DNA of 48,294 bases from a virus: positions 1-48,294 of the IMG/VR virus record IMGVR_UViG_3300027621_000467; one strand, given 5' to 3'. Position 1 is the first letter of the stretch. Each line of letters opens with the position of its first letter. The notes beneath the pieces are model-generated. The model was not told the origin of the DNA and did no database searches. It worked only from the letters and a program-made list of their open reading frames with translations. Below are positions 1 to 45,537 of this stretch, piece by piece. The position numbers and the translations under genes are program-made.

Positions 1-4
1 TGGA

Positions 5-3000
5 ATGACAGATGCCTTTAGGGATACCTATGACACCACGGCAAAGCGGATGAAGGAGTTTTCCATGCGTACGACTGGAACGGTCATTGCTGGAACGGCA
101 GACGCAGTCGCAAAACCATTTTCCTATGTCCAACAAAAAATCGCTCAGGGCACGACTGCCTTCGCTGAAACCTCTGGCCAAAATGCGACTGTCCTCCGTA
201 ATGCCACTCAAACCGCAATTGCAGACGCTGGAGAAAGGGCAATCGGCGAAGGGCTCTCCCTTTCGCCCATTCGTTCAACGCTTTTCTCGCTTGGTGTAAA
301 GCCACTTACTGAATACGCCAGTGTGCTCGGCAATGAGATTGTGGACCTCGCTAACGGCGTTGTTCAAGTCAAGCCACAGCAGATTGGTATGGGCATGCTT
401 GAAAGGCTTGCCACTAAGAACGGTAGCAGGGTTCCCCTCAGTGCTGAAGCACTTGCCGTAGCCAAGTTTACCAACGTAGTAGTCGGCTGGCCAGCATCGA
501 TGGCTGTGCCAGTGCTCAGGCGTTCCGTCGGTGACGCCGCCTTCATGGGCACCTTGGGATACCTTAACGCTCGTGGTGAAGGTGCCGCCGCTGGTATTGG
601 CATTGGCTTCTCTTGGGGTGGTCTGTCTGGAAGCCTTAGGCACATCCATAACGTATACAGCCAGAAGAGTGGCCATGCGTACGTCATCAGCAATTTCGAC
701 AAGTCTCAAATCAACATGATTGAGGCTAAGAATCCAGAGACCGCAAAGCACATGAGGGCTACCCTTAGTGCTATTGACGGAATGAATGACACTAGGATTG
801 GTGCCACCATCCGTGCCGCCTTTGCACAGTCTTTCACAGTAGACCCAACGGCACAGATTAGGTTCTCAACTAGGGCAGAGTTAATTAAAGAGTTTGGTCC
901 AGAAAAACAAATTACGGACATGCCAGAAACTGGACTTGGCTCTCAATTTAAAATTAAGAAGAACGGTGGAGAACTTGATGTCATCTGGATTAACAAGAGT
1001 CAGGCCTCGCCAGAGACTATTGTCCACGAGATTGCACACCTTCATCTTAACTCTCTTTTAAAGAATGACGCCGACTCTGTTGAGATTTACAAGCAGTTCT
1101 ATGGAGACAGGAAGGACGCTGGCGTTATCAGCGATGATGCCATGGCACATCTCATTGCCGACTACAGGAGTAAATTTATTGGCCTTCCAGACAAAGCAGA
1201 TGGTGCGGCCTACGCTAGGGCAGTTGCAGAGAGGAAAATTGCTTACGATGCACACCTGTTCATGGCACAGGAAAAACTTAAATCCTTCAGGCAGACGCAG
1301 GGTGGGTCTGGCTCAATGGACAACGTTAAGACCGATGTAAATGGTCATACGATTCCACTAGCCATTGCGGAAGCCGCCGATGGCGACATGAACTACCTGA
1401 AGGAAATTGTAGATGAGACATTTGCGTCCTCCTACTCCAACAGCGTACTCAACAAGAGCCCAGACTATTTTATCAGGAACCCAGAGTACAGGAGTCTTAG
1501 GGCAAGCCTTGAGAACATGTACATGCTTAGAACCCAGCGTACTGTTGCGAAGATGGAACAGGCTGGCATCCTACTCAGGCCGACCAACCCTCTGAACAGC
1601 AATGCTCAGATGACCACGTTCATGTGGGAAAATGGCAGTTACCTGCACATGCCTATGCTGGACTCTTGGACCAAGAGCGTCGTCGCACAGGCCATGAGGC
1701 ACGGAGACATTAACGTATCCCTGATGAGTCCAGAAAGGGCTGAAGCCTACTTTAAACAGACTGGCAAGGAGCGATTCGCAAACACTATCAAGGGCGGCAA
1801 GGTGATGAAGGGTAAGCGTGAAATCGACCAAATCATTTCCGAAAACTCCAAGAAAGTCGTAGACGCACTTGAAGCCCTCCCGCAGAACGAGCGTCCTAGG
1901 TTTATCATTAGCCAGAGCGGAAACAAGTCCTTGGACATGTCTGTTCTCAGCAATAAGCAGTGGGATGCCATCATTAACGTTAACGTGTTCAGTCTCGAAG
2001 AGGTGAAGCAGTTGCGTGGTTTGACCGAGATGGTCAGGAACGTTCGTGCTGGAAAGCCAGTCTTTAACACTGTTACTGGTCAGTACCTAGGCCGTACGCA
2101 TCAGGTCGTCATCGATGGTCAGGTCAGGCGACTCACTGGTAGCGACGTTCCAGTTACCAACAGGCACTTCTCGCCTTACGCCGTTGAACTCAAGTTTGAT
2201 AACTTCGACGACTTCGGCAACCCTCTCAAGGAGGGCAAGGGTCACATCACGGTTCACGCTGTTGATGTCCGTGTCCTTAACAGGCGTAGGCTCAAGATGT
2301 GGCAGAGGTCTGACGTCCGCTCCATGTTCACTGACTTTGGTCACTACACTCGGACCTTCGCCGACTACATGGACAACCTTTCTCAGGATGCTTCCAGCAG
2401 GAAGACTTCCGTAGAGAAGTTTAGGCCTGAATTTGGTTCGAACGCCGAAGCCGTCAGGGACGTCATGTATGAAACTTTTGGCGGCAGGAAACGTGCAGAC
2501 GAGTCCTACATCAACGCCCCAGAAGGTGGCTACAATGGGAACACTGATGGCCCTAACTACCCCTTCCACTCCCTTAGGTTTGAACTCCTAGCCAACCTAG
2601 AGACGCAACCATCCGTATTCCAAGAGACCTTTGGCAATAACCTGATGGCGTTGCCTTACAACCATGTCAATGCATACGAAGGCGTACGCAGGAACATGAT
2701 GGTTGGCGGGTTTGTTGAGTACCCTATCGGTGAAGACAAAAAGTACTGGGGCAACCACATTGGATACGAAATCAGGCAGAACGGAAACAGGCTATCCTTG
2801 TTCAGTCCGTTTGGCTCTTTGATTGGCAACTTTAAGACGCTCGCTAGGGCACAATCCTATGCAGAGCGTAACATGCGTAACCTTCCTCAGGAAGAAGGGC
2901 GTGGCATGGTCGGCACCGAGCAAGGCCCGACGCAGGATTCTGACTCACAGATTAAGGTGACCTTGCAGGACATCAGCAGTGGTCGTGCTAACATGATGGT

Positions 3001-6000
3001 TGGTGCTAAGGGCTACTTTAACGCCGAAGTTACACTCAAAGACAATGAGGCTTGGGACAGGTTTGTTGATGACGCAAGGAACAGCATGTTTAACAGTGCA
3101 ACTCAGGCGAGGAACGAAAATCAGTTCTACAGACAGGCCAGCATCAAGTTGTCGGAAATCCTAAAAGACCGTAGGCTGCTTGCTCAGTATCCATTTATCG
3201 GAGATTTTGAAATCGTATCAAGTGGCATGGCTGTGCTCCATGGAGGATTTGTTGAAGGAATCTGGGGCTCTAGGAATGGAAGGACTATCTTGGGGCTTTC
3301 CACAAACCTTATTGATGCCCTTGGCGAAAACGCCGAGATGAGCATCAAGACAGTACTTCAAGGTCACCTTCAGGAATTAATTTCGTTTGCAGACGGCACG
3401 ATTAAATCTGGAAGACTGGCATACGTCGATGGGGACATCAGGTACATTGGAAACTCGGCCATGATGTCGCAGATGAAGAAGATGAAAGAACTTTTAGATG
3501 AGCAAAAAAAGTCTAATCCTAATGCCACGATTGAAGACGTCCTAAAGTCTGAGGCGGATAAAAACATCGAAGCGACTATTAAAGACCACTGGCAAGTAAC
3601 GGACGACGGTAAGGGCAAAAAGATAATTGGGCTGTTAGGGAATCAATTTAATAAGCAAAGGATGCTCACAAAAGGAGAAATATCCATGGTTGAGTCTCAT
3701 TTTCTTGGAATCTTAAATTCATTTTCAGGAAAGAACCAAAGCAGTTACGTGATTCAGGCAATGAATTCTACGACTGTGTTCGTTAATCCAAAATTGCTAA
3801 AACTTTCCGCCTCGCTTGAGACGCTTTTAAACGAGCCTATAAGGGCTGGCTCGATTGCCACAGCCAAGGATGTCACCACGTACAGGGACCTGTATGACAA
3901 TTTGTTAATGGCTGGCATGTCTGGATTCCACCACGTCACTAAAACTGGAGACAGGGTGAGAAAGGATGCAAAGAAAAACCCAAACGCCCAACTGTCTGAC
4001 ATTGAGAAGGATTCAAACAATTACGCCAAGGACATGGGCTGGTCATCCGACTACGAGATGGGCGTGTTTAAAAGTGGAAGCCCAAATGCGGAAAGTCAGA
4101 CCTTGGTGGGAATTAATGGGATTGAAAATTACGCTATTTTTACGATTGGAAGAACGTCTGACCCGTTTGAAAAGGCTCTTTCTACTAACGTCACGTTTGT
4201 GACGCCAGCAACCTCTTTCACTTCACTCAGTTTTGTTAGCCAAGAGCGAGGAAGTAGGCCCACCACTGACATGCATGTATTCCCATCTAAGTGGGCCCCG
4301 ATGTCCAACCTAGGGAGGCGTCAGGGCGGATTAAATGTATCCATTAACTCCATGCTGGCAATTAATGGCCTGTCTCCGTTCCTTTACGGCGAGGGCGGTG
4401 AAGTTCTATCCAAGGGTTCGTTGCACAAGTTTGTGGCCGATGGAACGTTCTCCGACGCACTTGAATACATGTATGCAGAAGCATTCCCACAAAAGCATGC
4501 TGAGTTGATTCAAAAGAATCCAGAAGCGTTCTCTGATTACACATTGGTAAGGAAGATGGCTGAAGATGCTTGGAAGAGTGGCCTTTCTACGCCTCAGGAG
4601 CATGCCGTATTCCACCTTGCTACTGCCGTATCTCAGATTCTTTTGGGCATGGAGATGGTTAACCAAAGCCCCATCGGGCTTCAGGCCGTAGACCTAATGT
4701 CAAAAGACCTCCAAAGGACGGAAGTAATGGACAAACAGGGAGTCATGGTTCCGCCAGCCTCAGTTAAGGTGCTCATGGACGCCCAGTACTTCTCTCCAGA
4801 GTACCTTGGTGCTGGTGCCGTCAACGAAGGCGTGGCGAGAGTCATGCTTATTGGCGAACGCATGGGCTGGGGCACTATGGGCGACAGCAGTAACCTTAAT
4901 AACTTTGTTAACCAAAGGGTTGTAACTAAAAACCGCTACGGTGGCGACGTTCTAAGGGCGTCTGCGTTTGTTAAGCAACTTGCAAACATCGGAACGCAAC
5001 TAGACGGCATTCTTAAACAGGCTGGGTTCGACAAGAACGCACCAATCTCCCCAGTAGCCAAGTACTCCAACATGATGGTTGGTGGATTCTTTGGCTCGAT
5101 GGACGCCAACGAGAAGATGATGGAGGCCGCTGGCATGCTCAGGATGGTGAGGACCGACGGCGGTCAAATGTACAAGGCGTTCGAATTTAGCGACAAGGGC
5201 TCAAGCCTGTTGCTTGGTGCAGTTGATGAGAAGATTCACCTTCTTCCGTTCATGAACGACTTAGAGTCTCCGACCAAGGGCTTTACGTCCTTCATGGCTG
5301 ACTACAAGACGGCGGTAGACGCTAAGGATAGCGTCGCCATGGAGAACATTGTAAGGAAGTTGAGCACCATTAGGCTGGATGAAATCCTGAAGCACGACCA
5401 ACTCTACAGGTACTACCCCAGCCTTAAGTCTGTAAGGGTCGGCTTCGTCGAGGGCTTCGGTGCTGGTTACTACCCTAAGCAGAACTTTATTGTCCTTGGT
5501 ATCGACAGGATTATCTCTGGCGAAATTGCCAAGGCCAACGGCGTCGATGACGTCATCATCCCAGACAACGTCAGGGCGAACAGCATCCACTCCAGCCTCC
5601 TCCATGAGGTCCAGCATGCGATTCAACGCATGGAAACTTGGACTCAGACTGGCGACGTGACCGAGTCCGCACAGTACAAGCGGGGCATCTTTAAATACCT
5701 TATTAAGAACGTCATGGGTCTTGGCGGTTCATTCCCAGAGCCTCTCATCTCCGCACGAACCAAAGGCTCCGACGCTATCAGGCTCGAAGTCGAGAAGGCA
5801 CGTGAGGCTGGCTTGGACGACCCAGAAATACAAAAGGCCCTAGAACTAAGCCCAGCAGAGTTTGAGAAGCACCTGATGGAGTTGGCTGACAGCCCAATGG
5901 CTCAGAGGGTTATCGAACTCGCCGCCCCATCTGCATATCAACTTTTTGGTGCTGACGCCATGGCGTACGAAAGGATTTCCTACGAACTTGCCAATGATGC

Positions 6001-9000
6001 AACTAACTCTAGGCGAATGGCTGGCTTTGCTAGAGAAATGATGACCTTGCAGGAGGAAGCCGCCGTCATTGTTAAGGAGGCAAGGAGTGGCCTGTTCACC
6101 GCCGAGCAGGTCCACATGATGATTTACGGTGATGGCGGACTGCTTGAAAGGCGTGACAACGTGTCCTTGGCGATTGATAAGTCCCTTGGCAAGGAAGTGA
6201 GCGACTTGTCCTACGAGTACACCTCACACCACTCTAGGTATCTGGACCTTATCCTAGATGTCGGCAGGACAATGGATTCGGTTAAGCACTCCACTCAGAA
6301 TGGGCTTGGTTTTACCTCAGTTAAGATGAGGAACTTAGTTCACTCCCTAGGACTTATGCAGTACTATGGCCAGTTGACCGAGAAACAGGCCTACGAAACA
6401 GCCGAAAGGAAGGACATGTCCCAAGGCGAACTTAACAAGTCACGCCGTGCTGACGACTACTTGCTCAAGACTGCAACCGATTCTCGTGCCAACTCCCTTA
6501 AGAACCTAGGCATCATGATGAAGGAGGGCAAGGTGCCTCGTGTGTCTAACATGATGGTGGGTGGCCTAGGCATGGGCCAGTCCGTCCTAAAGGGTAACAG
6601 CGATGACTACAAACTGGATGCACTTCGTAAGATTGCTAGGCTCACGACGATTTCCTATTACATCTCCGCCGCCGACGCTGAATTGCAAAGGCTTAACAGG
6701 TATGTGGTTTCGGCACGAGGCTGGGAAGTAATCAACGGAAAGGCTAGGCTTGTCTATAAGACTGGCATCATTGAATCGGCTAATTTTAAGCGTGGTGAAA
6801 TGGATGATTCGCCATCAGGAAGGTACGGCCAGCGGGTCAAGCAATCCCCCATGTACGAGAATGCCAACGACGGCGTTGATTCGTACCTCCATATCTACAA
6901 CGGACTTTCGGAAGACGGCATGAATTCCATTAGCCTAGAGGAAGTTGCAAGGCTGATTGATGGCACGGTTATCATGGAGAATGAACTGGCAACTACCACT
7001 GAGGCCGTTGATGCGGTTTACAGGCAGGATTTTCCAGCAAGGATTGAAATGGATGACCTTAGGTCCGTGCTCACCTCAATGGGCGTGACCGAAGAAGGGT
7101 TACAGATGGCTAATATCAGTGCCATCCAGTCCGCCTTTGCGGGTGCGACCATGACTAAGGAAGAAATTGCCAACATCATGGCGATTCATCACCAGTTTGT
7201 TATCAGCGAGTTTGCCTACGGTGAAGCCTTCGGGAAAGAAAGGCTTACCAAGGCAATTAACGAATCAAACCCGACCCCAGAGTTGCTCTCACAGGCAGTT
7301 ATTAAGACTTGGGGCAAGAGCGGTGGAGTGCGTCTCGCACAGGCACTCAACTCTATTGGCATCAAGACGGACGCTTGGACGAAGGGAGAGGCCATGAGGA
7401 GTTCATTTGGTTTATTCTCTGCTGGCCGTGGTGCCATTCAGTTCACCCCAGTCAGGCCAGACTTTATCCCTGAAGGTGATTGGTATGAATGGGTGGAACG
7501 CAAGAAAGCCGAGGGAACTTGGCCCAAGGATAAGGCGTACATCGAAATCGGGCATGATGAAATCCATCAGATGTTTGACGTGTACAACACTATGGACCCA
7601 TCGGATAGGCAGATTAACAAACTAAACAGCCTGTACGCCCAAAGGTGTATCAGGATTAGGCCAATCTTTGAAAAGTTCATGGCTAACATCGATGAAGCCA
7701 GCAAGGACCTGAAGTTTGCACTCATCGACACGGCCATCCTGCTGACTACCCGATACGAGCCAGAGTCATTGCGTACCCGAAGGGCTGACGACTTTGGTAT
7801 AAGAAAAATGTGGAGGGAAGAATTAAACACCGAGGCTGGAAGAACGGCACATACAGAAACGTTCAAGCAATCTCAGTTCGACCCCGAAGAGGAGAACACT
7901 GGTGTGGTTGGAAGGTTCGGCCCTAGCATCCTCCTTGGAAATGTATTCAGGGAGTCTGGCTCCTTCAAGGACTCGAGCATGTTTGGTACCGAACTCGTGC
8001 TCCTTCCAACGGTAGGACACTCACTTGATAGGCAGATTAACAACTCATACGGAGAAGCAAATGCCACGTTTGGCCTTACGATGCCAGCGAACAACGTTCT
8101 AAACGACAGGGGAATGCCAGCATATGAGTATCCAGCACTTCGTGATTTTGGATACGCAGTAAATCCGTTTTCAATCACTTACGGTTCTGACGGCATGACT
8201 AAAGGCAGGTTTAGGCAAGAGGCAGATTTTGTGCTTAGGTCAATCGACTCGGCACACTTCGGCTTGATGCAACTAATCCAAACTATGCAGCATCATTACG
8301 ATACAAACACACGTGAAGCCGTAAAAAGAATGGAGAGGCAGAACTCCGCCGTGGAGTGGGTTGAAACATTTTCCCGCAACGCCGCTAACGTTTCTGCCAT
8401 CATGGGCGGATTAGTGAAGAGCATGCAACTAATTACAAGTTCGCTTCAGGATAGACATTCGTTACTGGTCCCATTTAACAATCATAGGGCTAAGATGGGT
8501 TCTAGCGTTATCCCTCGTGAGTCGGGAAGAACAGACACGGCTACATCTATAGTACGTTCTAGGGGCTATCTAGGTGCTGACGGCTCTCTTGTTGTCGAAT
8601 CCGTAGATGAAAACGTTTTAAATGGAAGCAACTCTCACAATGAAGTTCTATCTATCCCTTACCTAGTTCCTCGGAGCGGTGGCCAGTCGGAATCAACCAA
8701 TCAGGCCCTAGCAAGAATGCATGGTATCGTTTTATCTGGAGTCGTTGGAGACTTGGAAAGGGCGTTCTTAGTAAATGGTGAACTCGACGACCCGACTACT
8801 GGCACCAACATGCAGTCTGGGGATGTTCATCTGGCACTTAACCAACTTATTGGCAACGGCTTTGCCACGTCGTCGCAGATTGATAACCTCGCCATAACCC
8901 TGAGAGATAACAACTACGTTGCATACACTGGTGTTCACGCACTTCACTCCGCATTGTATCAGTTAGTTGTAGCAAAAGGCATCGAGCAACAGGCATTGCT

Positions 9001-12000
9001 TAACGCACTTCAGGAATCACCAGAATTGATGGAGATTCTGAAGAAGACCGACTTTAATGGTACTGGCGTCGTGTTCCCAACCGCCAAGACGGACTCAACC
9101 ACACAAATTGACTCGCACTTTTATGCGGTTGCGATGGTCCCAATTTTGACAAAAGCCTTCTCAGAAAGCACCATTACGTTTAGGGATGGCAAGATTTCCA
9201 AGACCGACATTCTTTCCGACGGACAGCGTCAGGAATTTAACGCCCTGCTTGCAGAGGTAAGTGATGAAAATCTAGGCATGACTCCTGCTGGCGGCGGCGG
9301 AAACCCAGAATACGTAGGCCGTATCGCCACGTTTATCTCCTCCCTGACCCAAGAGCAAAAAGTGCTTATCTCTGAGATGTGCTCGGACGTGAACAGCAAC
9401 ATGCTCCTTGATTCTATGATTTCTGGCATGCAAGGCATGGCCGCAATTGAATTGCTAGGAAACTACCCAGCGATGGAGGGGCTTGTTCCGAACTTCAAGG
9501 AAGAGATGAAGAAGCGGATGCGTCATTACATTCAGTCTGGTGCTATCCAGTGGGAGCAGGGCGTTCAAAGTCAGATTGCTAACCCTATTCTGAGAAAGAA
9601 CTTGGCTGACGAGAAGCCATACAAACAAGCAATTCTTACCCTACTTAGGAGCGACAATGCTCACGCATTTGGAAAGTTCCTGTACGGCATCAGGACGCTT
9701 AACAAATTCCCAGCATACGAACTTAGCAGGGGTGATACCAACGCACAACTGGTGTCCGTGGGTGATGCGGCCTCAACTTCTATCAGAGGCTTATTCAGGA
9801 TGTCGCTGATGACATCCGACTACGGATGGTCAGCCCTTGCCAAGGATGCATCTGGCGAAGTTTCAAAGTCCATGATTCTGGACGCTGGGTCTAGTGATAT
9901 AATCAGAACGCATAGCCTAGCCGACAAGGATGCCCTTTCTAGGAACACTCCTAAATACATCTCAGCAAGGCCAATCGCCAACACTGGTATGGGCGACGCC
10001 CTGCTTAGGCCAATGAGATATGATGGCGTTGATGGTTTTGGCGGAGGGATTGGAGCGGTTGAGGGAGTCCATACTAGGGTAATCGTCCCACGTCGTGCGG
10101 CGGCTATCTCAAAGCCGTTTGTCAGGAAGATGATGGTTGATATCTTAATCCGTGAAGCAAAGAAGGCTGGCACGAATAAAATCAGCCTACAACCAGCAAG
10201 GGTGGCGACCATGGGTCGCAAACTTGTTAGTAAGGGCCAAGTAACCACCGCAAACAAAACTGGGTTGGCGGGGCCAAAGGGTTTGCTTTACGACCAAGGC
10301 ATAAGGACGATACCACTGCTTGGATACACGTCACCCCTGCCAAGGCTGTATCATGGTGCTAGTCCAAGTGACAACGCCCCCTTTAAGACTGGTGAAATTT
10401 CACCATACGGACAAAAGGCCTCCCTAGGATTTGCTTTCAAGCGTCTTGAGGACGGAAGAATCGTAATCAACATCAGTGGAGATGTGTTGGGGTATAAAAA
10501 CTTTACCACCCTGTCTTCTAGGGGTGGATGGGATAACTTATCTGTGGGCGTAAACCTCGAAGAAGCACTGGGTTACTCGGTAAGCGACAAGACTATTGCA
10601 CACATGGACCCGAAGTACTTGGCAAACGGATTGGAATCCGTAAGCAGTAACGACATTCACCTTGCAAGAATGCTGAATGTGCACGGCGGGGCTTGGCGTG
10701 TTGAAATCCTAAAGAAAGCACAGTCCATACTATCTAATGGAACTCACGAGTCTCGTCAGGTTAATCAAAGAATTATCGGCAACACCAGCCTGTTTACGAG
10801 GGATGCGGCAGACACCATTGCGAGAATTGCAGCAGGTCAGGGAAATCCGAATAGCAGTTCAGACATCGTGGTGGCTATGGCCCTAATGCGTGACTCGGCC
10901 ACGGATAATTACCTCACATTAACCCTTAACGAAGGCTCTTCTCAGGACTCAATTAAAGCGGCAATTTTTAGCCTACTAATGGAGAGGATTGGAGTTAATA
11001 GAATCATGACTTCGCTTGGTCATAAGAGGGATGCTGGAAATGATTTTAACGTTTTTGCATCTACCATCTCATTTGGAGTCATGAATGATGACAGTTATCT
11101 TATGAGGAGCGTAATGGGTGAGAGCGGAATTTCTGCAAGGGGTGGCTCAGATTTTGGTAGTCAACAGCCAGCACGAGGGTCACTTCACGGAGTGCTTGAG
11201 ACGCACGTCAGGGACATGAGCACAAGGGATAGTACGAATGACGACACCTCCCTTAGGACTCTCGGCCCACGAGGCTCTGCCGAAATGCTGATGGCAAATC
11301 TTCCGCACATTAATGCAGACATTGAAAAACTTGCGGCAATGGCTTCTGGCAAGGACAGCGGGTACTTCCTGCCTGACCTTGAGCGTCAGTTGGCAATGAA
11401 TGGAGACAAGCGTTCCGCAATCGAGGCCCTATTTCCAGACAGGCCAGAACTTACGGAGTTTGCGTGGGACAGTTCTTCAAATTCCAATGTGGTGATTATC
11501 CCAAGGAAAGAAGGCAAAAAGATTGTTGGCTACTTGGTCGGATACGACATCCCAAGTGGTGTTGATAAGTCTTCTGGCAAGCCGATTTTTTCTAGAAAAA
11601 CTGCTTGGGTTAAGACGATGTCCGAAGCCGAGTCACTACGTAATAAATTCACCCTGAGCACTTCAAAGGCCGAACTGGCTCAGGCTATCGACAGTCTGTC
11701 TAATCAAACTGGTAAATTTGCAATTATCAGCAAGGACGTCACGAAGGGTGCTTACGCACCTGTCAGGAGAAACACTACGGTCAAGGTATCCGAGGGAGAC
11801 AAGGGCTCTGGAATGTTTGAGTTAGATTACTCAAATGGCTCTACCTACACGGTAGGAGACTTAGAACTAAGGCTCAGTAGGGAACAAGCGGGTGCACTTC
11901 AGGCTAGCCTTTCCGTTTCCGACGTGCTCCAGACCGAAATCATTGAGACTAGGTCTGCTAACATGATGGTTGGCGGAACTGGCAGTGACCCTAAGGAACT

Positions 12001-15000
12001 TGAGTCATTACTAAGGCGTAAGATTAACTTTGGAACTGGCATGGGCAGGGTTGAGTTCTCCTCTAGGCTTATGAGTGCCGTCGCCCATGGCAAAACGAGG
12101 AGCGGAAAGAACAAGTATCCAGAACTAATGACTGGTGCCGAGTGGTATAAGTTCATCAGGGAGAATAACGTGTCTAAGGATGAAATCAGGATGAGCGGTA
12201 TTGCCCACCTGTTGTTCGAAAACAAGGACATGCAAATCAGCAGGAGCGAGTTGGCTGAATTTGTGTTTACCATGTATCCTAGGAACTTTAGGCAAGATAG
12301 GGGCGGACCACTGGGCGACCAGCAGTACCTGTCCCACATGACCGCATCAAATGGCTCCGATGGATTCCCGAGCGGGGCCTACATCTATCCATTTATCTTT
12401 GATGCTGAAGCAAAGGAAATGCAAGTGATGGACGCCCACGTGGCGAATCTCCAGAACATTCAATCCCACCTGTCTGAACTTCGGACCAAAGGAGAAGAGG
12501 GCAACGCACGTGCAAATGTAATCGAATCGGCAATGAAGAAGTCGATTGACGAACTTGTTGACCTTGCTGGATTCCCCAAGGAAATTTTGGGCGAAGACAC
12601 GCTCGACGGTAAACTTGCATTCATCTTTACTCAGGCAAACGATTCAAAAGACCACATTAGTGAACAGGACTTCGTCTCTGGCTCATCCAGAAGGATTCGG
12701 CCAGCACAGATGGATTACTTAGTAAGGTCTGCAATCGACGCAAAGATGCAGGAGGTTAACGGCATTGTCTCTTCTGCTATCGAAAAAGACATTGGGATTG
12801 TTGACCCATGGAACTGGGCGTTCTCGCACACTGGTAGTAAGTTTGACCAATTTGAACTCGCAAACGGTACTAGGATTAAGCCTGAGCGTAGGCCGATTCT
12901 TGGCTCACCTTCCATGGCGGATAAGGCAGATAGGTTGCTCATTCAGCAGGGCGTCCTTATCTCCCACTCTGGAAACTCCCACGAAGGTATGGCCACTTAT
13001 AAAGGTAACTACAGTACTGCCATTTGGCTTACGGAACTTTGGTCTAAGCGTATGCAAGCAGAGCACACAAGATTTGTTGGAATACTAGAGCAAAGAAAGA
13101 CTACGGCGACTAACCCAGAAGACGTAAGGAGGATTCAAAGTATCATAGACTCCGCTGAACGTGTTAAAACGATGAGGTCATCTTTCGATGCTGAACGCTC
13201 AAGTGCCATGGGTAATGCTGGCCACTATTCCTCTCCGATGACTGGACTGTTCCAGTTGGGCCACATTAGGACCACGGCTGGTGCAATGACTGCCTCTCAT
13301 GGCATTCATACGCTTGGCACTGGCATCGGCTCTATTGACGAGTCAGACCCAATCGTCGGCGTAAGGCGAGAATTTGAGCCAGCGTTCATGATTGAGGAAA
13401 TCCAATCTGACACGTTCCAGTACCAGACGATGGGCGAGTCGACCCAGCCAGAGTATGCAATGCCAGACACCCTTGAACAGGCCGCTGGCTTAAGGGATGT
13501 CTCAATCTTCCAAGGAGTTAAGAGGGAAATTGAAACGCTGACTAATTCGCTTCATGGCACTAATCAGGCACTACTGAACCACCTCAACAACATTAAGCAA
13601 AGGGTCGCACCTGTGCCTAATGGTATACTAAATCACGGAATTCAGTGGAGGGTTCTTGAGGCTACTACTGCTCTTGAGAGGTGGCTACTTAAGCGTGACT
13701 TAATCGATAACAATTTCGTAGGCTCTACCATTCTAACCGAAACTGGGGGCACCGCAAAACTTACCCCAGCAATGGCGGCAAAGTATGGAATTAGCGAGGT
13801 GCCGACTTACAGGTGGAACAAAGACTTTAATCTAGATGAAGAACATTCAAGGAGTGTTAGTACTGCCCTCTCAAAGGCCTTGTTTAAAGCCTCTGCTATG
13901 GCGTTCCAAGAAATCTGTCCAAAGACTTTTGGTGTTCTTGATTTAGAGAACGCTGGATTCACTTCATTGTACACGGAGGGTAACTACTCTGAAAATGCCA
14001 GCCCCACCCCGCTGTTGGTTCTCTTGCAATACGCCATGCTTGATGACCAAGCCCAGATGTCTGCTCAGGAATTAAAGAGGGCTCTTCTTAACCATAGCCA
14101 GCCTAACTTTGACTTCGACGCCATGGCTGGAAGACTTGTCATTAGGATTGAGGACGCCGTAAGGGCTTGGAAGCATGGAGACCCATCTTTCAGGCGTTAC
14201 GAAACTGGCAATAATTCCGTTAAGATTAAGGTGCTTGAAGCGTACGTAGATACACTGAGGGAGTTGCAACGTTCGGAGCGGTTCACCATTCCTAACTTTA
14301 CTTGTTCCATCGAAAATGGTCCGACTCAGACCCAGTCAATAATTAGCGGTATGGTAAAGGCCCCATTGGCTTTTGCTGGCGGTAATTACGTCGCTTACCA
14401 TTGGGATGCGGTGAAGGGAAAGAATAGCGTCCACAACACTTTCACTAACGACTTTTACACGGCTCGACTAAACCCTGATAAATTTCAAGAGAAGCATGAC
14501 AGTGGAGGCACTCTTAGGTATAGGCAAACGTCTCCGCTTGCAAATAACGGACTGTCGCAACTGCTGATGGACTACATGAGTCTGTTTGCATGTCAGGCTG
14601 ACATCGGAGACGCACCAAAGAAACTGGCGGAATTAAGGGTCAAGATGGATGTACTTAGCAAAAGCATGGCCGTGAACACCACGGACCCTGATGCTAGCAT
14701 GCCACACATCATCACTTCACAGCCATACGGCGTTGAGGATATCTACAGACCAATCTCGTTGCAGGGAACTGTTTTACGTGCCGCAAATGCTGGCTTTAGG
14801 CAGATTGGAATGACTGATGCACGTCACCATTTTGTGCGTGGTCACGGTTCCGACTCCAAGGGCTCACTCATCCTTGGTCGCCGCCGCCGTGCATTCGCAA
14901 ATACTGAAGGCGAACTTACTTACCCGATGCGGGCTCTCCGAATGCTTGGAGACGAACAATACTACGCACTTCATGGCGGACTGTTTGATAGGCTCAGGAA

Positions 15001-16696
15001 GATGGAAGATGCTGAACTTAAGCCAGCCCTACTTGGAAAGAAATTTGAGCACAACGGCGTGGAGGCAAATTTGGTAGCCCACGTAATTCATGCCATGATG
15101 GATTCAAAAGACCTTGTAGAACTTGGAGGCTCAACTGAGGCATTAAGGGTTAAGGACATGGCTAAGGCCCTTGCCGAACCTAGTTACATGCAAAACGTGT
15201 TTGGCGACGCTCGCCAAATGCTTGGCATTCCAAATCCCTCTGACATTGAAAAAGCCTTTTATGAGGATGGTGGCAACGCACTTCTTAGTGAGGATGGTAA
15301 GCCAGTTGCTTACAAGAAGTCTGGCACTAACTGGTGGAGTCGCAGTTACGGCACCCTTGTGAGCGGAGAAAAGACAGGAATCCAAAGGCTCATTGATACC
15401 GCCGCCGCAAACGTCGGACAGATTTATGTGCAGGGGGAGTACGAGCGTGGCTCTGGCTACATTAATAACTACGGCTTGCCGATGTGGTATCAGCGTATGA
15501 ACTACGCTGGTCAGGAAACTAAAAACCTGATGAAGACCTCTACGGATGCCTTCGAGCGTCCAGTTATCGAACGTGGTGAAGACGGCATGTACAGGATTCT
15601 CGACCCGAAGACCGCTAAACTGATTTTACAGTCTGATAACCCAGACATGGTTCGTGAAACCCTATTGCAGAATTCAAAGTATCTCGGAAGCCTTCCTTAT
15701 CTTTCAGGATTCTTGGGAGAATGGAAAGCCGTCGGCGGCTACGTATTCTCTGGATACGGACACGGTATCATACTTGACCACCACCAGATTGCTGGCGGCG
15801 AGGCGGGCAAAGGGATGCCATACACGACACAGCCATTTGAGCAAAATGAGGATGTCTTTGATTTCACGTTCCACCCGACGGAAGGGCAAGTTAAAGACAA
15901 CGAGAGAAGCAAGGTGTTTATGAGGACCGACCCCAATCTCACATCCGTGGAAAAGTCTAATAACGCCGCCCACACGATTACATCCCGAGCCCAAAAGGCT
16001 TGGAGGCAAGTCCCTAACTTTGCCGAAGTGATGCCTATCAAGTTGGTGACCAAACTTATCTTCGGACTTGAACCTACTGACGCAAACGTAGGCTCGGCAC
16101 TCAGGCTCATGAATTCAAATGCGGCCACGATGTTTAGGTTCGCACCTAACTTCCAAACCGATGCCCAGCGTACGGCGTTCAGGCAGAAGGTTATCTCTGG
16201 CATCCCATCCATGATGGTAGGGGGCTTCGGCGACAACGGTATGCCTCAGGCTAACCCAACACTGCTTGCTTGGCTTCAAAATGTCTCGGCTAACTATGAG
16301 TCTGCTGGATTTGTGAATCGTGCACTTTACGATTTCGAGACTCAAGAAATTTCTCAAGAAGCGGCGGCTAAAAGGCACGGAACCGACGTACGTGTTATGC
16401 GAAACCGTCGGGCCGCACTTAGGAAAAAAGGAATAGAATTCCCGATTGGAAAAACAGCCCAAACCAAAAAATCTGGTGCAGAATTAGAACTCGGTAAAAA
16501 TAATCAGTACAGAATCTCTAGTGAGGTGATTCGCAAGATGAAGGATATGAGCAACTCTGGATATTCGTCTCGCGAAATCGCTAGAGAGTTGGGAATGGCT
16601 GATGGTACGGTGAGAAATCTACTGAAAAAACATAGGGTTGATTACAGGCCAGACCGAGCAGACCCAACTGAACCGTACGGAGGTCCACATGCATGA
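5..16696 (+). CDS. Giant polyvalent protein, main part (continues from the right window end)
   Basis: An unbroken frame of 5,563 residues. The first ATG is probably not the true start: the sequence from base 14 matches 48184 onward in frame, so the gene really begins at 47356 and encodes about 5,836 residues (add 273 to the numbers below). Seen: an Ala/Gly-rich hydrophobic N-terminal part; HEIAH at 341-345; a degenerate zincin-like segment near 1050-1130; a fuller copy with HEVQH at 1867-1871; RLYHGASPSD at 3447; IEEIQSD at 4463-4469; HTH-like segments near 5340-5390 and 5505-5545. The hexapeptide NMMVGG or a close variant occurs at 897, 996, 1689, 2182, 3986 and 5402. Family knowledge: phage polyvalent proteins string such domains together and are thought to enter the host with the DNA. 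Inference: an ejected or internal virion protein, possibly processed. Arginine is mostly AGG and proline mostly CCA. The stop overlaps the holin start (ATGA). Confidence 0.9.
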   Translation: MTDAFRDTYDTTAKRMKEFSMRTTGTVIAGTADAVAKPFSYVQQKIAQGTTAFAETSGQNATVLRNATQTAIADAGERAIGEGLSLSPIRSTLFSLGVKPLTEYASVLGNEIVDLANGVVQVKPQQIGMGMLERLATKNGSRVPLSAEALAVAKFTNVVVGWPASMAVPVLRRSVGDAAFMGTLGYLNARGEGAAAGIGIGFSWGGLSGSLRHIHNVYSQKSGHAYVISNFDKSQINMIEAKNPETAKHMRATLSAIDGMNDTRIGATIRAAFAQSFTVDPTAQIRFSTRAELIKEFGPEKQITDMPETGLGSQFKIKKNGGELDVIWINKSQASPETIVHEIAHLHLNSLLKNDADSVEIYKQFYGDRKDAGVISDDAMAHLIADYRSKFIGLPDKADGAAYARAVAERKIAYDAHLFMAQEKLKSFRQTQGGSGSMDNVKTDVNGHTIPLAIAEAADGDMNYLKEIVDETFASSYSNSVLNKSPDYFIRNPEYRSLRASLENMYMLRTQRTVAKMEQAGILLRPTNPLNSNAQMTTFMWENGSYLHMPMLDSWTKSVVAQAMRHGDINVSLMSPERAEAYFKQTGKERFANTIKGGKVMKGKREIDQIISENSKKVVDALEALPQNERPRFIISQSGNKSLDMSVLSNKQWDAIINVNVFSLEEVKQLRGLTEMVRNVRAGKPVFNTVTGQYLGRTHQVVIDGQVRRLTGSDVPVTNRHFSPYAVELKFDNFDDFGNPLKEGKGHITVHAVDVRVLNRRRLKMWQRSDVRSMFTDFGHYTRTFADYMDNLSQDASSRKTSVEKFRPEFGSNAEAVRDVMYETFGGRKRADESYINAPEGGYNGNTDGPNYPFHSLRFELLANLETQPSVFQETFGNNLMALPYNHVNAYEGVRRNMMVGGFVEYPIGEDKKYWGNHIGYEIRQNGNRLSLFSPFGSLIGNFKTLARAQSYAERNMRNLPQEEGRGMVGTEQGPTQDSDSQIKVTLQDISSGRANMMVGAKGYFNAEVTLKDNEAWDRFVDDARNSMFNSATQARNENQFYRQASIKLSEILKDRRLLAQYPFIGDFEIVSSGMAVLHGGFVEGIWGSRNGRTILGLSTNLIDALGENAEMSIKTVLQGHLQELISFADGTIKSGRLAYVDGDIRYIGNSAMMSQMKKMKELLDEQKKSNPNATIEDVLKSEADKNIEATIKDHWQVTDDGKGKKIIGLLGNQFNKQRMLTKGEISMVESHFLGILNSFSGKNQSSYVIQAMNSTTVFVNPKLLKLSASLETLLNEPIRAGSIATAKDVTTYRDLYDNLLMAGMSGFHHVTKTGDRVRKDAKKNPNAQLSDIEKDSNNYAKDMGWSSDYEMGVFKSGSPNAESQTLVGINGIENYAIFTIGRTSDPFEKALSTNVTFVTPATSFTSLSFVSQERGSRPTTDMHVFPSKWAPMSNLGRRQGGLNVSINSMLAINGLSPFLYGEGGEVLSKGSLHKFVADGTFSDALEYMYAEAFPQKHAELIQKNPEAFSDYTLVRKMAEDAWKSGLSTPQEHAVFHLATAVSQILLGMEMVNQSPIGLQAVDLMSKDLQRTEVMDKQGVMVPPASVKVLMDAQYFSPEYLGAGAVNEGVARVMLIGERMGWGTMGDSSNLNNFVNQRVVTKNRYGGDVLRASAFVKQLANIGTQLDGILKQAGFDKNAPISPVAKYSNMMVGGFFGSMDANEKMMEAAGMLRMVRTDGGQMYKAFEFSDKGSSLLLGAVDEKIHLLPFMNDLESPTKGFTSFMADYKTAVDAKDSVAMENIVRKLSTIRLDEILKHDQLYRYYPSLKSVRVGFVEGFGAGYYPKQNFIVLGIDRIISGEIAKANGVDDVIIPDNVRANSIHSSLLHEVQHAIQRMETWTQTGDVTESAQYKRGIFKYLIKNVMGLGGSFPEPLISARTKGSDAIRLEVEKAREAGLDDPEIQKALELSPAEFEKHLMELADSPMAQRVIELAAPSAYQLFGADAMAYERISYELANDATNSRRMAGFAREMMTLQEEAAVIVKEARSGLFTAEQVHMMIYGDGGLLERRDNVSLAIDKSLGKEVSDLSYEYTSHHSRYLDLILDVGRTMDSVKHSTQNGLGFTSVKMRNLVHSLGLMQYYGQLTEKQAYETAERKDMSQGELNKSRRADDYLLKTATDSRANSLKNLGIMMKEGKVPRVSNMMVGGLGMGQSVLKGNSDDYKLDALRKIARLTTISYYISAADAELQRLNRYVVSARGWEVINGKARLVYKTGIIESANFKRGEMDDSPSGRYGQRVKQSPMYENANDGVDSYLHIYNGLSEDGMNSISLEEVARLIDGTVIMENELATTTEAVDAVYRQDFPARIEMDDLRSVLTSMGVTEEGLQMANISAIQSAFAGATMTKEEIANIMAIHHQFVISEFAYGEAFGKERLTKAINESNPTPELLSQAVIKTWGKSGGVRLAQALNSIGIKTDAWTKGEAMRSSFGLFSAGRGAIQFTPVRPDFIPEGDWYEWVERKKAEGTWPKDKAYIEIGHDEIHQMFDVYNTMDPSDRQINKLNSLYAQRCIRIRPIFEKFMANIDEASKDLKFALIDTAILLTTRYEPESLRTRRADDFGIRKMWREELNTEAGRTAHTETFKQSQFDPEEENTGVVGRFGPSILLGNVFRESGSFKDSSMFGTELVLLPTVGHSLDRQINNSYGEANATFGLTMPANNVLNDRGMPAYEYPALRDFGYAVNPFSITYGSDGMTKGRFRQEADFVLRSIDSAHFGLMQLIQTMQHHYDTNTREAVKRMERQNSAVEWVETFSRNAANVSAIMGGLVKSMQLITSSLQDRHSLLVPFNNHRAKMGSSVIPRESGRTDTATSIVRSRGYLGADGSLVVESVDENVLNGSNSHNEVLSIPYLVPRSGGQSESTNQALARMHGIVLSGVVGDLERAFLVNGELDDPTTGTNMQSGDVHLALNQLIGNGFATSSQIDNLAITLRDNNYVAYTGVHALHSALYQLVVAKGIEQQALLNALQESPELMEILKKTDFNGTGVVFPTAKTDSTTQIDSHFYAVAMVPILTKAFSESTITFRDGKISKTDILSDGQRQEFNALLAEVSDENLGMTPAGGGGNPEYVGRIATFISSLTQEQKVLISEMCSDVNSNMLLDSMISGMQGMAAIELLGNYPAMEGLVPNFKEEMKKRMRHYIQSGAIQWEQGVQSQIANPILRKNLADEKPYKQAILTLLRSDNAHAFGKFLYGIRTLNKFPAYELSRGDTNAQLVSVGDAASTSIRGLFRMSLMTSDYGWSALAKDASGEVSKSMILDAGSSDIIRTHSLADKDALSRNTPKYISARPIANTGMGDALLRPMRYDGVDGFGGGIGAVEGVHTRVIVPRRAAAISKPFVRKMMVDILIREAKKAGTNKISLQPARVATMGRKLVSKGQVTTANKTGLAGPKGLLYDQGIRTIPLLGYTSPLPRLYHGASPSDNAPFKTGEISPYGQKASLGFAFKRLEDGRIVINISGDVLGYKNFTTLSSRGGWDNLSVGVNLEEALGYSVSDKTIAHMDPKYLANGLESVSSNDIHLARMLNVHGGAWRVEILKKAQSILSNGTHESRQVNQRIIGNTSLFTRDAADTIARIAAGQGNPNSSSDIVVAMALMRDSATDNYLTLTLNEGSSQDSIKAAIFSLLMERIGVNRIMTSLGHKRDAGNDFNVFASTISFGVMNDDSYLMRSVMGESGISARGGSDFGSQQPARGSLHGVLETHVRDMSTRDSTNDDTSLRTLGPRGSAEMLMANLPHINADIEKLAAMASGKDSGYFLPDLERQLAMNGDKRSAIEALFPDRPELTEFAWDSSSNSNVVIIPRKEGKKIVGYLVGYDIPSGVDKSSGKPIFSRKTAWVKTMSEAESLRNKFTLSTSKAELAQAIDSLSNQTGKFAIISKDVTKGAYAPVRRNTTVKVSEGDKGSGMFELDYSNGSTYTVGDLELRLSREQAGALQASLSVSDVLQTEIIETRSANMMVGGTGSDPKELESLLRRKINFGTGMGRVEFSSRLMSAVAHGKTRSGKNKYPELMTGAEWYKFIRENNVSKDEIRMSGIAHLLFENKDMQISRSELAEFVFTMYPRNFRQDRGGPLGDQQYLSHMTASNGSDGFPSGAYIYPFIFDAEAKEMQVMDAHVANLQNIQSHLSELRTKGEEGNARANVIESAMKKSIDELVDLAGFPKEILGEDTLDGKLAFIFTQANDSKDHISEQDFVSGSSRRIRPAQMDYLVRSAIDAKMQEVNGIVSSAIEKDIGIVDPWNWAFSHTGSKFDQFELANGTRIKPERRPILGSPSMADKADRLLIQQGVLISHSGNSHEGMATYKGNYSTAIWLTELWSKRMQAEHTRFVGILEQRKTTATNPEDVRRIQSIIDSAERVKTMRSSFDAERSSAMGNAGHYSSPMTGLFQLGHIRTTAGAMTASHGIHTLGTGIGSIDESDPIVGVRREFEPAFMIEEIQSDTFQYQTMGESTQPEYAMPDTLEQAAGLRDVSIFQGVKREIETLTNSLHGTNQALLNHLNNIKQRVAPVPNGILNHGIQWRVLEATTALERWLLKRDLIDNNFVGSTILTETGGTAKLTPAMAAKYGISEVPTYRWNKDFNLDEEHSRSVSTALSKALFKASAMAFQEICPKTFGVLDLENAGFTSLYTEGNYSENASPTPLLVLLQYAMLDDQAQMSAQELKRALLNHSQPNFDFDAMAGRLVIRIEDAVRAWKHGDPSFRRYETGNNSVKIKVLEAYVDTLRELQRSERFTIPNFTCSIENGPTQTQSIISGMVKAPLAFAGGNYVAYHWDAVKGKNSVHNTFTNDFYTARLNPDKFQEKHDSGGTLRYRQTSPLANNGLSQLLMDYMSLFACQADIGDAPKKLAELRVKMDVLSKSMAVNTTDPDASMPHIITSQPYGVEDIYRPISLQGTVLRAANAGFRQIGMTDARHHFVRGHGSDSKGSLILGRRRRAFANTEGELTYPMRALRMLGDEQYYALHGGLFDRLRKMEDAELKPALLGKKFEHNGVEANLVAHVIHAMMDSKDLVELGGSTEALRVKDMAKALAEPSYMQNVFGDARQMLGIPNPSDIEKAFYEDGGNALLSEDGKPVAYKKSGTNWWSRSYGTLVSGEKTGIQRLIDTAAANVGQIYVQGEYERGSGYINNYGLPMWYQRMNYAGQETKNLMKTSTDAFERPVIERGEDGMYRILDPKTAKLILQSDNPDMVRETLLQNSKYLGSLPYLSGFLGEWKAVGGYVFSGYGHGIILDHHQIAGGEAGKGMPYTTQPFEQNEDVFDFTFHPTEGQVKDNERSKVFMRTDPNLTSVEKSNNAAHTITSRAQKAWRQVPNFAEVMPIKLVTKLIFGLEPTDANVGSALRLMNSNAATMFRFAPNFQTDAQRTAFRQKVISGIPSMMVGGFGDNGMPQANPTLLAWLQNVSANYESAGFVNRALYDFETQEISQEAAAKRHGTDVRVMRNRRAALRKKGIEFPIGKTAQTKKSGAELELGKNNQYRISSEVIRKMKDMSNSGYSSREIARELGMADGTVRNLLKKHRVDYRPDRADPTEPYGGPHA
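14..124 (+). repeat. Left copy of the inexact terminal overlap
   Basis: These 111 bases match 48184-48294 except at positions 31 (T/C), 85 (C/T), 105 (C/T) and 124 (C/T). Both copies lie in the same frame of the giant gene. Three differences are silent and one changes Ala to Val. Bases 1-13 do not match, so they may be a divergent read end. The overlap implies a circular map of about 48,170 bp. Confidence 0.9.
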
Positions 16697-17001
16697 ACCC
16701 TCCAGACCCAGATTTTAATTCCAGACTGGATGACCTTAAGCAGGGTGGCTGGGTCATGGCTGTACTCGGTGCCCTTGGAGCCGTAGTTAGGGTGCTCGTC
16801 AGTAGTGAAAACCTAGGCTGGGTGGTAGCAATACGGCGTGTCATTGGAGGCGGTATGATTGGCGTTGTCGCTTATTTCTCCGTTCATGGTTTGATTGAAC
16901 CGCTTTACGAGGCTATCACCTACAGCATCTGCGGGTCTTTCGCCCCTGAAATCATCGAAGGCATTAGGTTTAGAATTAACAATTTCCGCTTGAAAAAATA
17001 A
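16693..17001 (+). CDS. Holin-like membrane protein
   Basis: A protein of 102 residues. A short polar N-terminus (NPPDPDFNSRLDD) is followed by two hydrophobic stretches near residues 20-38 and 48-72 and a basic tail ending FRLKK. Size, topology and position directly before a small membrane ORF and a lipoprotein fit a phage holin, which opens the inner membrane at lysis. The start overlaps the stop of the giant gene as ATGA, so translation is probably coupled. The endolysin is not next door; the best candidate lies at 26.5-27.1 kb. No residue-level holin signature exists, so the call rests on topology and context. Confidence 0.6.
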   Translation: MNPPDPDFNSRLDDLKQGGWVMAVLGALGAVVRVLVSSENLGWVVAIRRVIGGGMIGVVAYFSVHGLIEPLYEAITYSICGSFAPEIIEGIRFRINNFRLKK

Positions 17002-17023
17002 GACGTAATGGCATACTGCCTAC

Positions 17024-17131
17024 ATGGACAAAATCAAAGAACTCGCTAACTTCTACTGGAACGAAACCGTATGGCGTTATCGAATCATCTCCTTTGTTGC
17101 TGGATTTATCCTTGGCTGGCTCTTGGGCTAA
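17024..17131 (+). CDS. 35-residue single-span membrane protein in the lysis cassette
   Basis: A short frame starting MDKIKELANFYWNE and ending GFILGWLLG before TAA. The first half is charged and aromatic, and the second half is one hydrophobic span (about residues 21-35). It lies 22 bases after the holin-like gene, and its 3' part overlaps the start of the spanin-like gene at 17071 in another frame. Nested lysis genes are common in phages (Rz/Rz1). It could be an antiholin, a second holin or a partner of the lipoprotein. Its conserved position is the main support, and it could be chance. Confidence 0.45.
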   Translation: MDKIKELANFYWNETVWRYRIISFVAGFILGWLLG

Positions 17132-17847
17132 TCGGTTGTAGCACCACGCCTCCTCCACCTTTAATTAAGGTGGCAGAGAACCCAGAGCGTGAGAAGTACA
17201 TCGACAAGATTGAGTACGAGGTGTCGGAAGCATCCGCCGCACTCAAGGTGGCCAAGGATGGAGTAAAGCCACCTCACTCCAAGTTAGTTGACCTCACCAT
17301 CGTTAGGCTCGACGGTATCAAGCCCCCGACGCTTAAACAGATTGAAGTGTTCAGGGCTACACTCGGCAACGAGAAGGAACTTAAGAAGGAAGAGGACAAA
17401 GCCAGCAAGGTAGATGTCGAGACCTCAACGCTCCACGACTTGATTGAGGAAAAGGACTTGGAAAACCAGTCCCTCAAGGAGGAGAATGAAACCATCAGGC
17501 GTGACCAAGCCTTTGGAGAACTCAGGGCCAGATGCTTTACGCTCGGCTCGTGGTTCATGCTTGGTGGTGCTGGGTTGCTGGTAGCGTCTAGTGTAGTTCC
17601 ATTTGTGCCCAAGAAGTCTGGGTTCATTCTGTTGCTGATGGCGTCGCTATGCTTCGCTTCACCTTTCCTGCTTAAAGACCTCCTTGATGCTATGTGGTTC
17701 AAGGTTCTCGCTGGTACGCTCGTGGGCGTCTCAGGCGTCGCTGGAGCGTTCACGGCATACAAGGCTCACGCTCACGTAAAAGACCGCTTGACCAGCCAGC
17801 CAGATGGCAAAGATGAACCTGTGCGTGTCATGGGTCCGCAAGGTTAA
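17071..17847 (+). CDS. Spanin-like lipoprotein with C-terminal membrane spans
   Basis: A protein of 258 residues. The N-terminal hydrophobic stretch ends in a lipobox-like LIGC with Cys at residue 23, followed by STTPPPP, as in outer-membrane lipoproteins. The middle (about 25-150) is charged and helical, with a Lys/Glu-rich, probably coiled-coil part. The C-terminal part has three hydrophobic segments (about 155-176, 181-198, 206-228) and a polar tail. A lipid-anchored N-terminus, periplasmic coil and C-terminal inner-membrane anchor is the layout of a unimolecular spanin, which fuses the two membranes in the last step of lysis of Gram-negative hosts. Three spans instead of one is unusual. 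It overlaps the 35-residue ORF in another frame and is the last rightward gene. Confidence 0.55.
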   Translation: MALSNHLLCCWIYPWLALGLIGCSTTPPPPLIKVAENPEREKYIDKIEYEVSEASAALKVAKDGVKPPHSKLVDLTIVRLDGIKPPTLKQIEVFRATLGNEKELKKEEDKASKVDVETSTLHDLIEEKDLENQSLKEENETIRRDQAFGELRARCFTLGSWFMLGGAGLLVASSVVPFVPKKSGFILLLMASLCFASPFLLKDLLDAMWFKVLAGTLVGVSGVAGAFTAYKAHAHVKDRLTSQPDGKDEPVRVMGPQG

Positions 17848-17920: not shown

Positions 17921-17992
17921 TGGCCCCACTAGGAATCGAACCTAGATTTAGCGTTTAGGAAACGCCTGTCCTATCCGTTGAACGATGAGGCC
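17921..17992 (-). tRNA. tRNA-Arg (anticodon CCU)
   Basis: The minus strand folds into a full cloverleaf: acceptor GGCCTCA/TGGGGCC, a D arm with GGATAGG, an anticodon stem around the loop TTCCTAA (anticodon CCU), and a T arm with TTCGATT. The discriminator is A and CCA is not encoded. It reads AGG, the favoured arginine codon of the giant gene and other late genes. It is the last gene of the leftward operon, right before the terminator. Confidence 0.93.
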
Positions 17993-20799: not shown

Positions 20800-21445
20800 G
20801 GTCGGTGGAGGTCTTGGCTTGTTGGTTGAGATACTTGTTAAAGGCTATTCTGGTGCGAGGTTTAAAGATACCTTGGTATCCATTATTTAATGACGTGGTG
20901 ACGGCCTCGGTTGCATCCAATAGCCCCCACGTCATGAACTCGGCGTTCCATCTATTGACATAGGAGTTGCTGGAGGGCTTGCGGTTTGCCTTACGCCATT
21001 CCATGTAATCGTCCCATGCCTTGGACAGGGTTGGGTCAGACCTGATAAAGGAGTCATCAACCAGAGGCTGTGCCTTCTTATCTTTAGTATCTATATCCTT
21101 GTTTCTATATGGGTGAAATTCCTTGCACCCCTCGGGTGAAATTGGCTTCACCCCCTCGGTGCAATTGGCTTCACCCTCTAGGGCGAGCGTAAGGATGTCC
21201 CAGATAGTTCCGTCCTTGCTACGTCTGACGTAACCAGATTCAACAAGTCTGCCTATGCCATACTGCACGTTACGCTCGGACATATCCAGATACTTGGCCA
21301 GAGTCTCACGTGTGGCGAAACAGCCCTTAGCGTTAGACAGGATGTGTACGATTGACCACAGGAACTTGTCCGACTGGGTCAGCCGTGCGTCCTTGAATAC
21401 CTTGGCGGGTATCCACACGCCCTTGAATGGAAATTCCTCAGGCAT
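20783..21445 (-). CDS. Replication initiator-like winged-helix protein
   Basis: 220 residues from the ATG at 21445, which overlaps the exonuclease stop; the longer frame upstream lies inside the exonuclease gene and is not supported. The N-terminal 80 residues are winged-helix-like: FKGVWIPAKVF, then ATRETLAKYLDMSERNVQYGI and LVESGYVRR. A polar linker follows and then a C-terminal helical part with AWDDYMEWRKANRKPS. Such proteins bind phage origins and recruit the loader. Three 20-bp repeats with 23-bp period and an AT-rich tract lie inside the linker-coding part (21080-21176), as in lambda O. Neighbour and iterons together make the role likely. Confidence 0.72.
   Translation of the reverse strand: MPEEFPFKGVWIPAKVFKDARLTQSDKFLWSIVHILSNAKGCFATRETLAKYLDMSERNVQYGIGRLVESGYVRRSKDGTIWDILTLALEGEANCTEGVKPISPEGCKEFHPYRNKDIDTKDKKAQPLVDDSFIRSDPTLSKAWDDYMEWRKANRKPSSNSYVNRWNAEFMTWGLLDATEAVTTSLNNGYQGIFKPRTRIAFNKYLNQQAKTSTDHAKGF
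21111..21176. other. Probable replication origin: three iterons
   Basis: Three 20-bp units start at 21111, 21134 and 21157, exactly 23 bp apart. The middle unit is GGGTGAAATTGGCTTCACCC, an inverted repeat with 7-bp arms; the others differ at a few positions. About 30 bp rich in A and T (21080-21110) lies directly beside them. Since 23 is not a multiple of three, the repetition is not protein-driven. The arrangement equals lambda ori inside gene O. Confidence 0.75.
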
Positions 21446-23462: not shown

Positions 23463-23491
23463 GGTTGTATTATGTGTGTGGGTGAAATTCG

Positions 23492-23564
23492 TCGGGTAGA
23501 CAGGACTTGAACCTGCAACACCCTGCTCCCAAAGCAGGGACTCTACCAATTGAGATACTACCCG
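23492..23564 (-). tRNA. tRNA-Pro (anticodon UGG)
   Basis: The minus strand forms a cloverleaf: acceptor CGGGTAG/CTACCCG with discriminator A, anticodon arm CCTGC-TTTGGGA-GCAGG (anticodon UGG), and T arm GCAGG-TTCAAGT-CCTGT. CCA is not encoded. It reads CCA, the main proline codon of the giant gene. It lies in the leader of the DUF932-like gene, 7 bases after the preceding stop. Confidence 0.92.
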
Positions 23565-25163: not shown

Positions 25164-25208
25164 GGTTGTATTTGATTTGGTTGTTTTGGTTTTGGTTTGG
25201 TGAAATGG

Positions 25209-25280
25209 TCAGCAAGACAGGATTCGAACCTGCAACACTATGCACCCTAAGCATAGACTCTACCGTTGAGATACTTACTG
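25209..25280 (-). tRNA. tRNA-Pro-like (anticodon AGG)
   Basis: The minus strand folds as a cloverleaf: acceptor CAGTAAG/CTTGCTG with A as discriminator, anticodon stem TATGC/GCATA with loop TTAGGGT (anticodon AGG), and T arm GCAGG-TTCGAAT-CCTGT. It is similar in the D and T arms to the tRNA-Pro(UGG) at 23492, so the two are paralogues. A34 would be unusual for a bacterial proline tRNA. CCA is not encoded. Confidence 0.85.
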
Positions 25281-45532: not shown

Positions 45533-45537
45533 ACTTT

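Follow-up and report, generated by a model that had tools for sequence, protein, structure and literature searches.

The window analysed here is the whole stretch of 48,294 nt of the IMG/VR record IMGVR_UViG_3300027621_000467, and its dominant feature is one giant gene on the plus strand, the product of which is referred to as W. The 5' part of the gene (codons 1-276) is located at 47356-48183 and begins with an ATG located inside the 3' end of the ORF that precedes it (46380-47363), and the remainder (codons 277-5836 plus the stop codon) occupies 14-16696. The ORF that terminates at 16696 runs in from the 5' end of the window, and the one that begins at 47356 runs out at the 3' end; joined, they give 5,836 residues with a single terminal stop. 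The first-pass annotation had proposed such a frame, of 276 plus 5,560 codons, and the ORF analysis confirmed it: the gene takes up about 36% of the genome (17.5 of 48.2 kb), with a product of about 640 kDa. The comparison of the window ends revealed an overlap of 110 nt (14-123 and 48184-48293) with 97% identity; counted over 111 nt (14-124 and 48184-48294), it contains four mismatches, every one of them C/T, which indicates that the contig ends probably derive from slightly different strain variants. The terminal overlap shows that the two contig ends meet within the giant gene. The record is classed as linear in IMG/VR and is likely a complete genome.

The four mismatches in the overlap, along with a frame break in one relative (L151), are the observations that could speak for an assembly artefact or a chance open frame. 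This reading, the probability of which is negligible, is refuted by the relatives, in which the frame is unbroken in many independent contigs, and by the selection acting on the gene. In the independent contig G001/L109, a frame of 5,718 residues crosses the 48183/14 junction without a stop codon, and its product shares 90% identity with W across the protein (94% at the N-terminus). For a sequence of this composition, the chance of 5,836 codons without a stop corresponds to a log10 P of about -124. Moreover, the dN/dS ratio between W and L109 is 0.14 overall and stays low in every 500-codon block (0.08-0.24). The giant gene is under purifying selection, and the earlier claims that the frame is kept across the junction and that selection acts on it both held, the former also in other independent contigs.

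The giant gene lies at the end of a late operon of the tailed-phage type, which is marked by the terminase large subunit gene (30991-32619, plus strand) and also comprises the SU10-type major capsid protein gene (36459-37889, plus strand) as well as portal, scaffold and further virion genes. Directly upstream, three genes of the same operon (43739-47363, plus strand) encode proteins of 597, 281 and 327 aa without a database match, which are possible ejection proteins. Downstream, a holin-like gene (weak match) and a lipoprotein-like gene (16693-17847, plus strand) are probable lysis genes, and the giant gene stops just before them. W is therefore encoded with virion genes, in a terminase-portal-capsid operon and before a holin-like gene, as phage-type polyvalent proteins are. 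Elsewhere in the window, three tRNA genes are found on the minus strand at 17921-17992, 23491-23564 and 25206-25280, namely Arg(CCT), Pro(TGG) and an unusual Pro(AGG), and the early region contains two 23-bp units in tandem at 21111-21156 (GGGTGAAATT...CACCCC).

To gather relatives, IMG/VR was searched with the SU10-type capsid protein as the query, which yielded 76 relatives, many of them of 46-52 kb. The N-terminus of W was matched in 29 of the 32 long IMG/VR records, and the frames in the matching long records span about 5,300-6,460 residues, barring records that end inside the gene; in some 20 relatives the stop-to-stop frames measure 5,615-6,460 residues. A further 11 records, with frames of up to 6,340 residues, were found through the giant protein itself. 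Conservation of the giant protein extends to dozens of related phages, with an identity to W of only about 18-36% outside its own subclade. Neither half of W had a relative in 50,697 phage records, and profiles of the giant and capsid proteins retrieved no host or prophage relatives from a collection of bacterial and archaeal genomes. These records represent a new, uncultured phage family, the giant protein of which fills 36-40% of the genome.

Most of W resembles nothing described. Searches of Pfam and PHROGs (both single-sequence and member-by-member) and profile searches of PDB sequences gave nothing credible for the bulk of the chain; RNA polymerase, ART and other Pfam, PHROG or PDB domains were considered there and rejected on the basis of these searches. 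The parts with a match are two polyvalent-type modules and a weak, variable helix-turn-helix (HTH) tail. The one chain thus unites an EEIQSD block and this tail with a pair of zincin motifs. The active-site motif of zincin-1, HEIAH (residues 614-618; 1025-1039, plus strand), is present as HExxH or HExxxH in 26 of 26 aligned members, the HExxxH form being confined to one clade. The zincin-2 module (5366-5665, plus strand) contains HEVQH at 5603-5617 within the core LLHEVQHAIQ, and HExQH is found in all 27 aligned members. Its profile matches modules of virion proteins from F116, 8P and StenR_269 (hhalign 99%, E 9e-19) as well as modules from other phages, and 63 members of a searched set of more distant loci and comparators also gave a match. 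In the alignment, a Glu downstream of this motif that is invariant in 27 members (E459; 6380-6382, plus strand), within the block YxxxPxExxAxxTExR, is a candidate for the third zinc ligand of zincin-2. The protease-like block announced by the first-pass annotation thus found support in motifs and homology, with two HExxH sites, one of which (LHExQHxIQ) profile-matches the zincin module of known phage virion and ejection proteins.

The EEIQSD block (13394-13411, plus strand) is kept across the family and is shared, as IEEIQSD, with the zincin-bearing polyvalent-type protein L191; a tblastn search of phage records with this region returned chance-level matches only. The polyvalent-type character proposed earlier consequently applies to the zincin-2 module and the IEEIQSD block, and not to most of the remaining chain, which matches nothing. 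The HTH claimed in the same annotation corresponds to a weak match at 16541-16633 (plus strand), in the variable tail of W. Most members have a tail of 32-50 residues at this place, and L109, 90% identical to W, also lacks the HTH; longer, HTH-like tails of 157-256 residues are present in some. The HTH does not, therefore, belong to the core of the protein. This terminal segment (16226-16696 in the window) is swapped between close relatives (L109, L110, L111, L118-L131). Another variation concerns L118 and L119, which have two extra HExxH motifs (HEIAHKP and HEIGHSR) around residues 3500 and 5025, perhaps further peptidase domains. In many distant phage proteins (L162-L223), the stretch upstream of the LLHExQH motif belongs to a shared module with the layout [MF]xxG..A - TGWxRGxDGKWRxEI - LxDxLxHxxLFxxYP - LLHEIQHAIQ.

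An unbiased k-mer scan identified NMMVG as the most over-represented word of W, with five copies against 0.002 expected, a feature that had escaped the first-pass annotation. Together with one variant, it defines six [NS]MMVG[GA] tags, starting at residues 1170, 1269, 1962, 2455, 4259 and 5675, all on the plus strand: s1 NMMVGG (residues 1170-1175; 2693-2710), s2 NMMVGA (1269-1274; 2990-3007), s3 NMMVGG (1962-1967; 5069-5086), which stands at the start of the zincin-2 segment, s4 NMMVGG (2455-2460; 6548-6565), s5 NMMVGG (4259-4264; 11960-11977) and s6 SMMVGG (5675-5680; 16208-16225), near the C-terminus and just ahead of the variable tail. None of 39 other ORFs that were examined contains the full tag. 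A loose match, MVLGG in the gene at 43739-45532, was rejected as a seventh tag, as it is not conserved in the relatives aligned. In L151 (record G035) a break in the giant gene lies at 5241-5360, some 46 residues ahead of the place of s4. The upstream frame ends in ...AGATGA; its stop overlaps an ATG (ATGA), preceded by GAGG, from which the following frame can begin. This reflects either two naturally separated, coupled genes or a single-base error of the assembly.

At the aligned six positions, other clades carry their own versions of the tag, such as NLMVGG, LMIGG/LMASG, SVGG/SVGD and QITG/MITG. In one column, M is replaced by S in clade C and mostly by Q in clade D, and the tags mostly end in G-G, G-D, A-G or T-G. 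When a PSSM built from the other members of a clade was scanned over each whole protein, the same six positions came out at or near the top; they were the six best matches in W, L109, L127 and L137, and the signal was weaker in L124, L126 and L131 of clade C, where several sites ranked below other words. The similarity of tags within a protein across sites exceeded that of label-permuted controls, both with hand-read sites (p <= 2.5e-4) and with automatic site extraction in which the tested columns were not used (p 1e-4 to 6e-3), although in both cases one protein per superclade was taken and, with only four superclades, independent events are few. Shared, co-varying recognition-type sites along one chain, the operational mark of a viral polyprotein, are accordingly present in W. 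Since the copies use different synonymous codons and their residues vary from clade to clade, recent DNA duplications and DNA-binding sites were rejected as explanations of the tags. Internal Met-Met translation starts were also discarded, since Met is absent from the second position in clade C and at most clade D sites. No enrichment of indels was found around the six sites (p 0.34), so the idea of the tags as unusually variable, indel-rich linkers is not supported. The six sites form a candidate set of co-varying recognition sites that appears to be new; no report of such a set, or of such a phage family, was found in the open-access literature, covered mostly as titles and abstracts.

The tags might also be structural start signals of successive modules, alike by module descent and without a common reader. 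In unrelated phages, the sequence ahead of zincin-2 modules is indeed enriched in the similar pattern [MF]xxG (18 of 42 against 123 of 670 control windows, p 4e-4), a value to be read with the fact that the regular expression was chosen after seeing examples, and s3 may for this reason be an old module-start element. However, apart from the tag, the repeat search gave no longer repeats linking the segments, and common descent leaves unexplained why the same residue change occurs at several sites in one lineage. This explanation is thus considered improbable. The same side-chain change at several separate places in one lineage is most simply accounted for by one common reader of all six tags.

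AlphaFold models were obtained for residues 541-1330 and 1861-2300 of W. In the former, s1 and s2 lie in or overlap stretches with pLDDT<50 (622-634 and 694-738), and in the latter s3 falls within such a stretch (92-111), ahead of the confidently modelled zincin-2 module. Foldseek found no significant match in the PDB for either model. Both consist of mixed alpha/beta structure with HExxH domains and contain no long helical rod, which is of importance for the possibility that W is a tail or tape-measure-type structural protein with incidental peptidase domains. Peptidases are present in some tape measures, and the gene belongs to the late operon. On the other hand, the modelled architecture, the end of the gene adjoining probable lysis genes and the nature of the comparators (virion proteins from phages of the F116 and N4 types) all argue against a tape measure, and this interpretation appears very unlikely.

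Among the closest parallels to W are the polyvalent proteins. The zincin-like MPTase is their most common, though not universal, domain, and the HExxxH zincin variant has been described for them as well (Iyer et al., 2017; PMC5512222). W has this MPTase, with HExQH in 27 of 27 members, HExxH/HExxxH in 26 of 26 and the hhalign match of 99%. Like polyvalent proteins, W is a long, probably multidomain chain in which the zincin-like MPTase occurs more than once, with the HExxxH variant in one clade, zincin-2 and IEEIQSD modules and a place among virion genes. It differs from them in that the greater part of it resembles no described domain and in having six co-varying tags, which were found neither in the peptidase section of PMC5512222 nor in the comparators; the tag is not repeated within the comparator polyvalent proteins. 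Pseudomonas phage 8P resembles the present phage in having a giant late gene, 8P_023 (a structural protein of 5,145 aa), before holin and lysozyme genes, and this gene makes up 24% of a 64-kb genome, compared with 36% for W. The zincin-2 module of W recurs in 8P_023 and in F116 p60 (F116 p59 was also compared), but convincing homology is restricted to this module (W ~1950-2500, in profile blocks), and the 8P and F116 proteins have no repeated tag. Among phage records, the best portal match was phage C75C1 (OQ984151), with 28% identity over 94% of the query. Its large genes (2,769, 375 and 1,343 aa) follow the tail-fibre gene, at a place comparable to that of W, but their products lack an HExxH motif and are not convincingly homologous to W.

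The virion RNA polymerase (vRNAP) of N4 (Schitoviridae) is likewise giant, with ~3,500 residues and an HExxH motif; it is ejected (PMC12633501) and packaged full-length and uncut (PMC5512222), whereas cleavage is proposed for W. No credible T7-like single-subunit RNA polymerase was detected in W with Pfam, PHROGs and PDB sequences, a search that a very diverged one could escape. The N4 example supports the idea that W also works uncut and that the tags are docking motifs co-evolving with one partner, such as the portal, the ejection-protein ring, a chaperone or the packaging machinery, since a concerted change needs only one common reader, which does not have to be a protease. However, the two zincin motifs, unneeded by a passive cargo, are kept in all members aligned, the tags mostly have the endings G-G, G-D, A-G or T-G, and the three that were modelled lie in or overlap low-confidence stretches. 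Docking without cleavage is therefore regarded as rather unlikely, though it is the most serious of the alternatives.

The explanation preferred here is that W is a polyvalent internal-virion (ejection) polyprotein in which the six tags serve as cleavage sites that delimit seven pieces, a reading from sequence to which an even chance is given. Several observations weigh against it: indels show no enrichment around the sites, several tags are poorly recovered in L124, L126 and L131, the comparator polyvalent proteins do not repeat the tag, neither model has a significant PDB match, and N4 vRNAP, likewise with a zincin motif, enters the virion uncut. The single ~640-kDa chain, encoded by one gene that occupies 36-40% of the genome, would consist of segments separated by the tags, and proteolysis at or next to them would release pieces of about 1173, 99, 693, 493, 1804, 1416 and 158 residues. 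Given the two conserved metallopeptidase motifs in the chain, a protease is the simplest common reader. The most plausible candidate for the enzyme is zincin-2 of the polyprotein itself, the segment of which starts with s3; it is favoured on account of the [MF]xxG enrichment described above. The cutting might take place before packaging or after ejection. The family is probably short-tailed, and the 640-kDa chain would in this way become pieces that could pass the tail and act in the host. That they would be ejected with the DNA is suggested by gene position and kinship, which also make the earlier proposal of an injected toolbox against the host plausible. The gene is intact and conserved, and two zincin active-site motifs are maintained along with six tags that change in concert in a lineage-specific manner. 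The picture taken as a whole, of a DNA phage with an RNA-virus-style polyprotein, six co-evolving cleavage tags, its own metalloproteases and seven ejected proteins, is held with slightly less confidence than cleavage at the tags itself.

The processing of polyvalent proteins by zincins has already been proposed (PMC5512222), and both this idea and giant ejection proteins are known. The question addressed here is the route by which such giants enter the host, as the passage of a 640-kDa protein through a phage tail is not obvious. The six conserved, co-varying tags suggest a concrete and testable answer, namely that the chain is cut. If this is true, the phage would be a DNA virus that makes a polyprotein cut at multiple sites, and its tag would provide a defined candidate target for the zincins of polyvalent proteins, the substrates of which are only conjectured.
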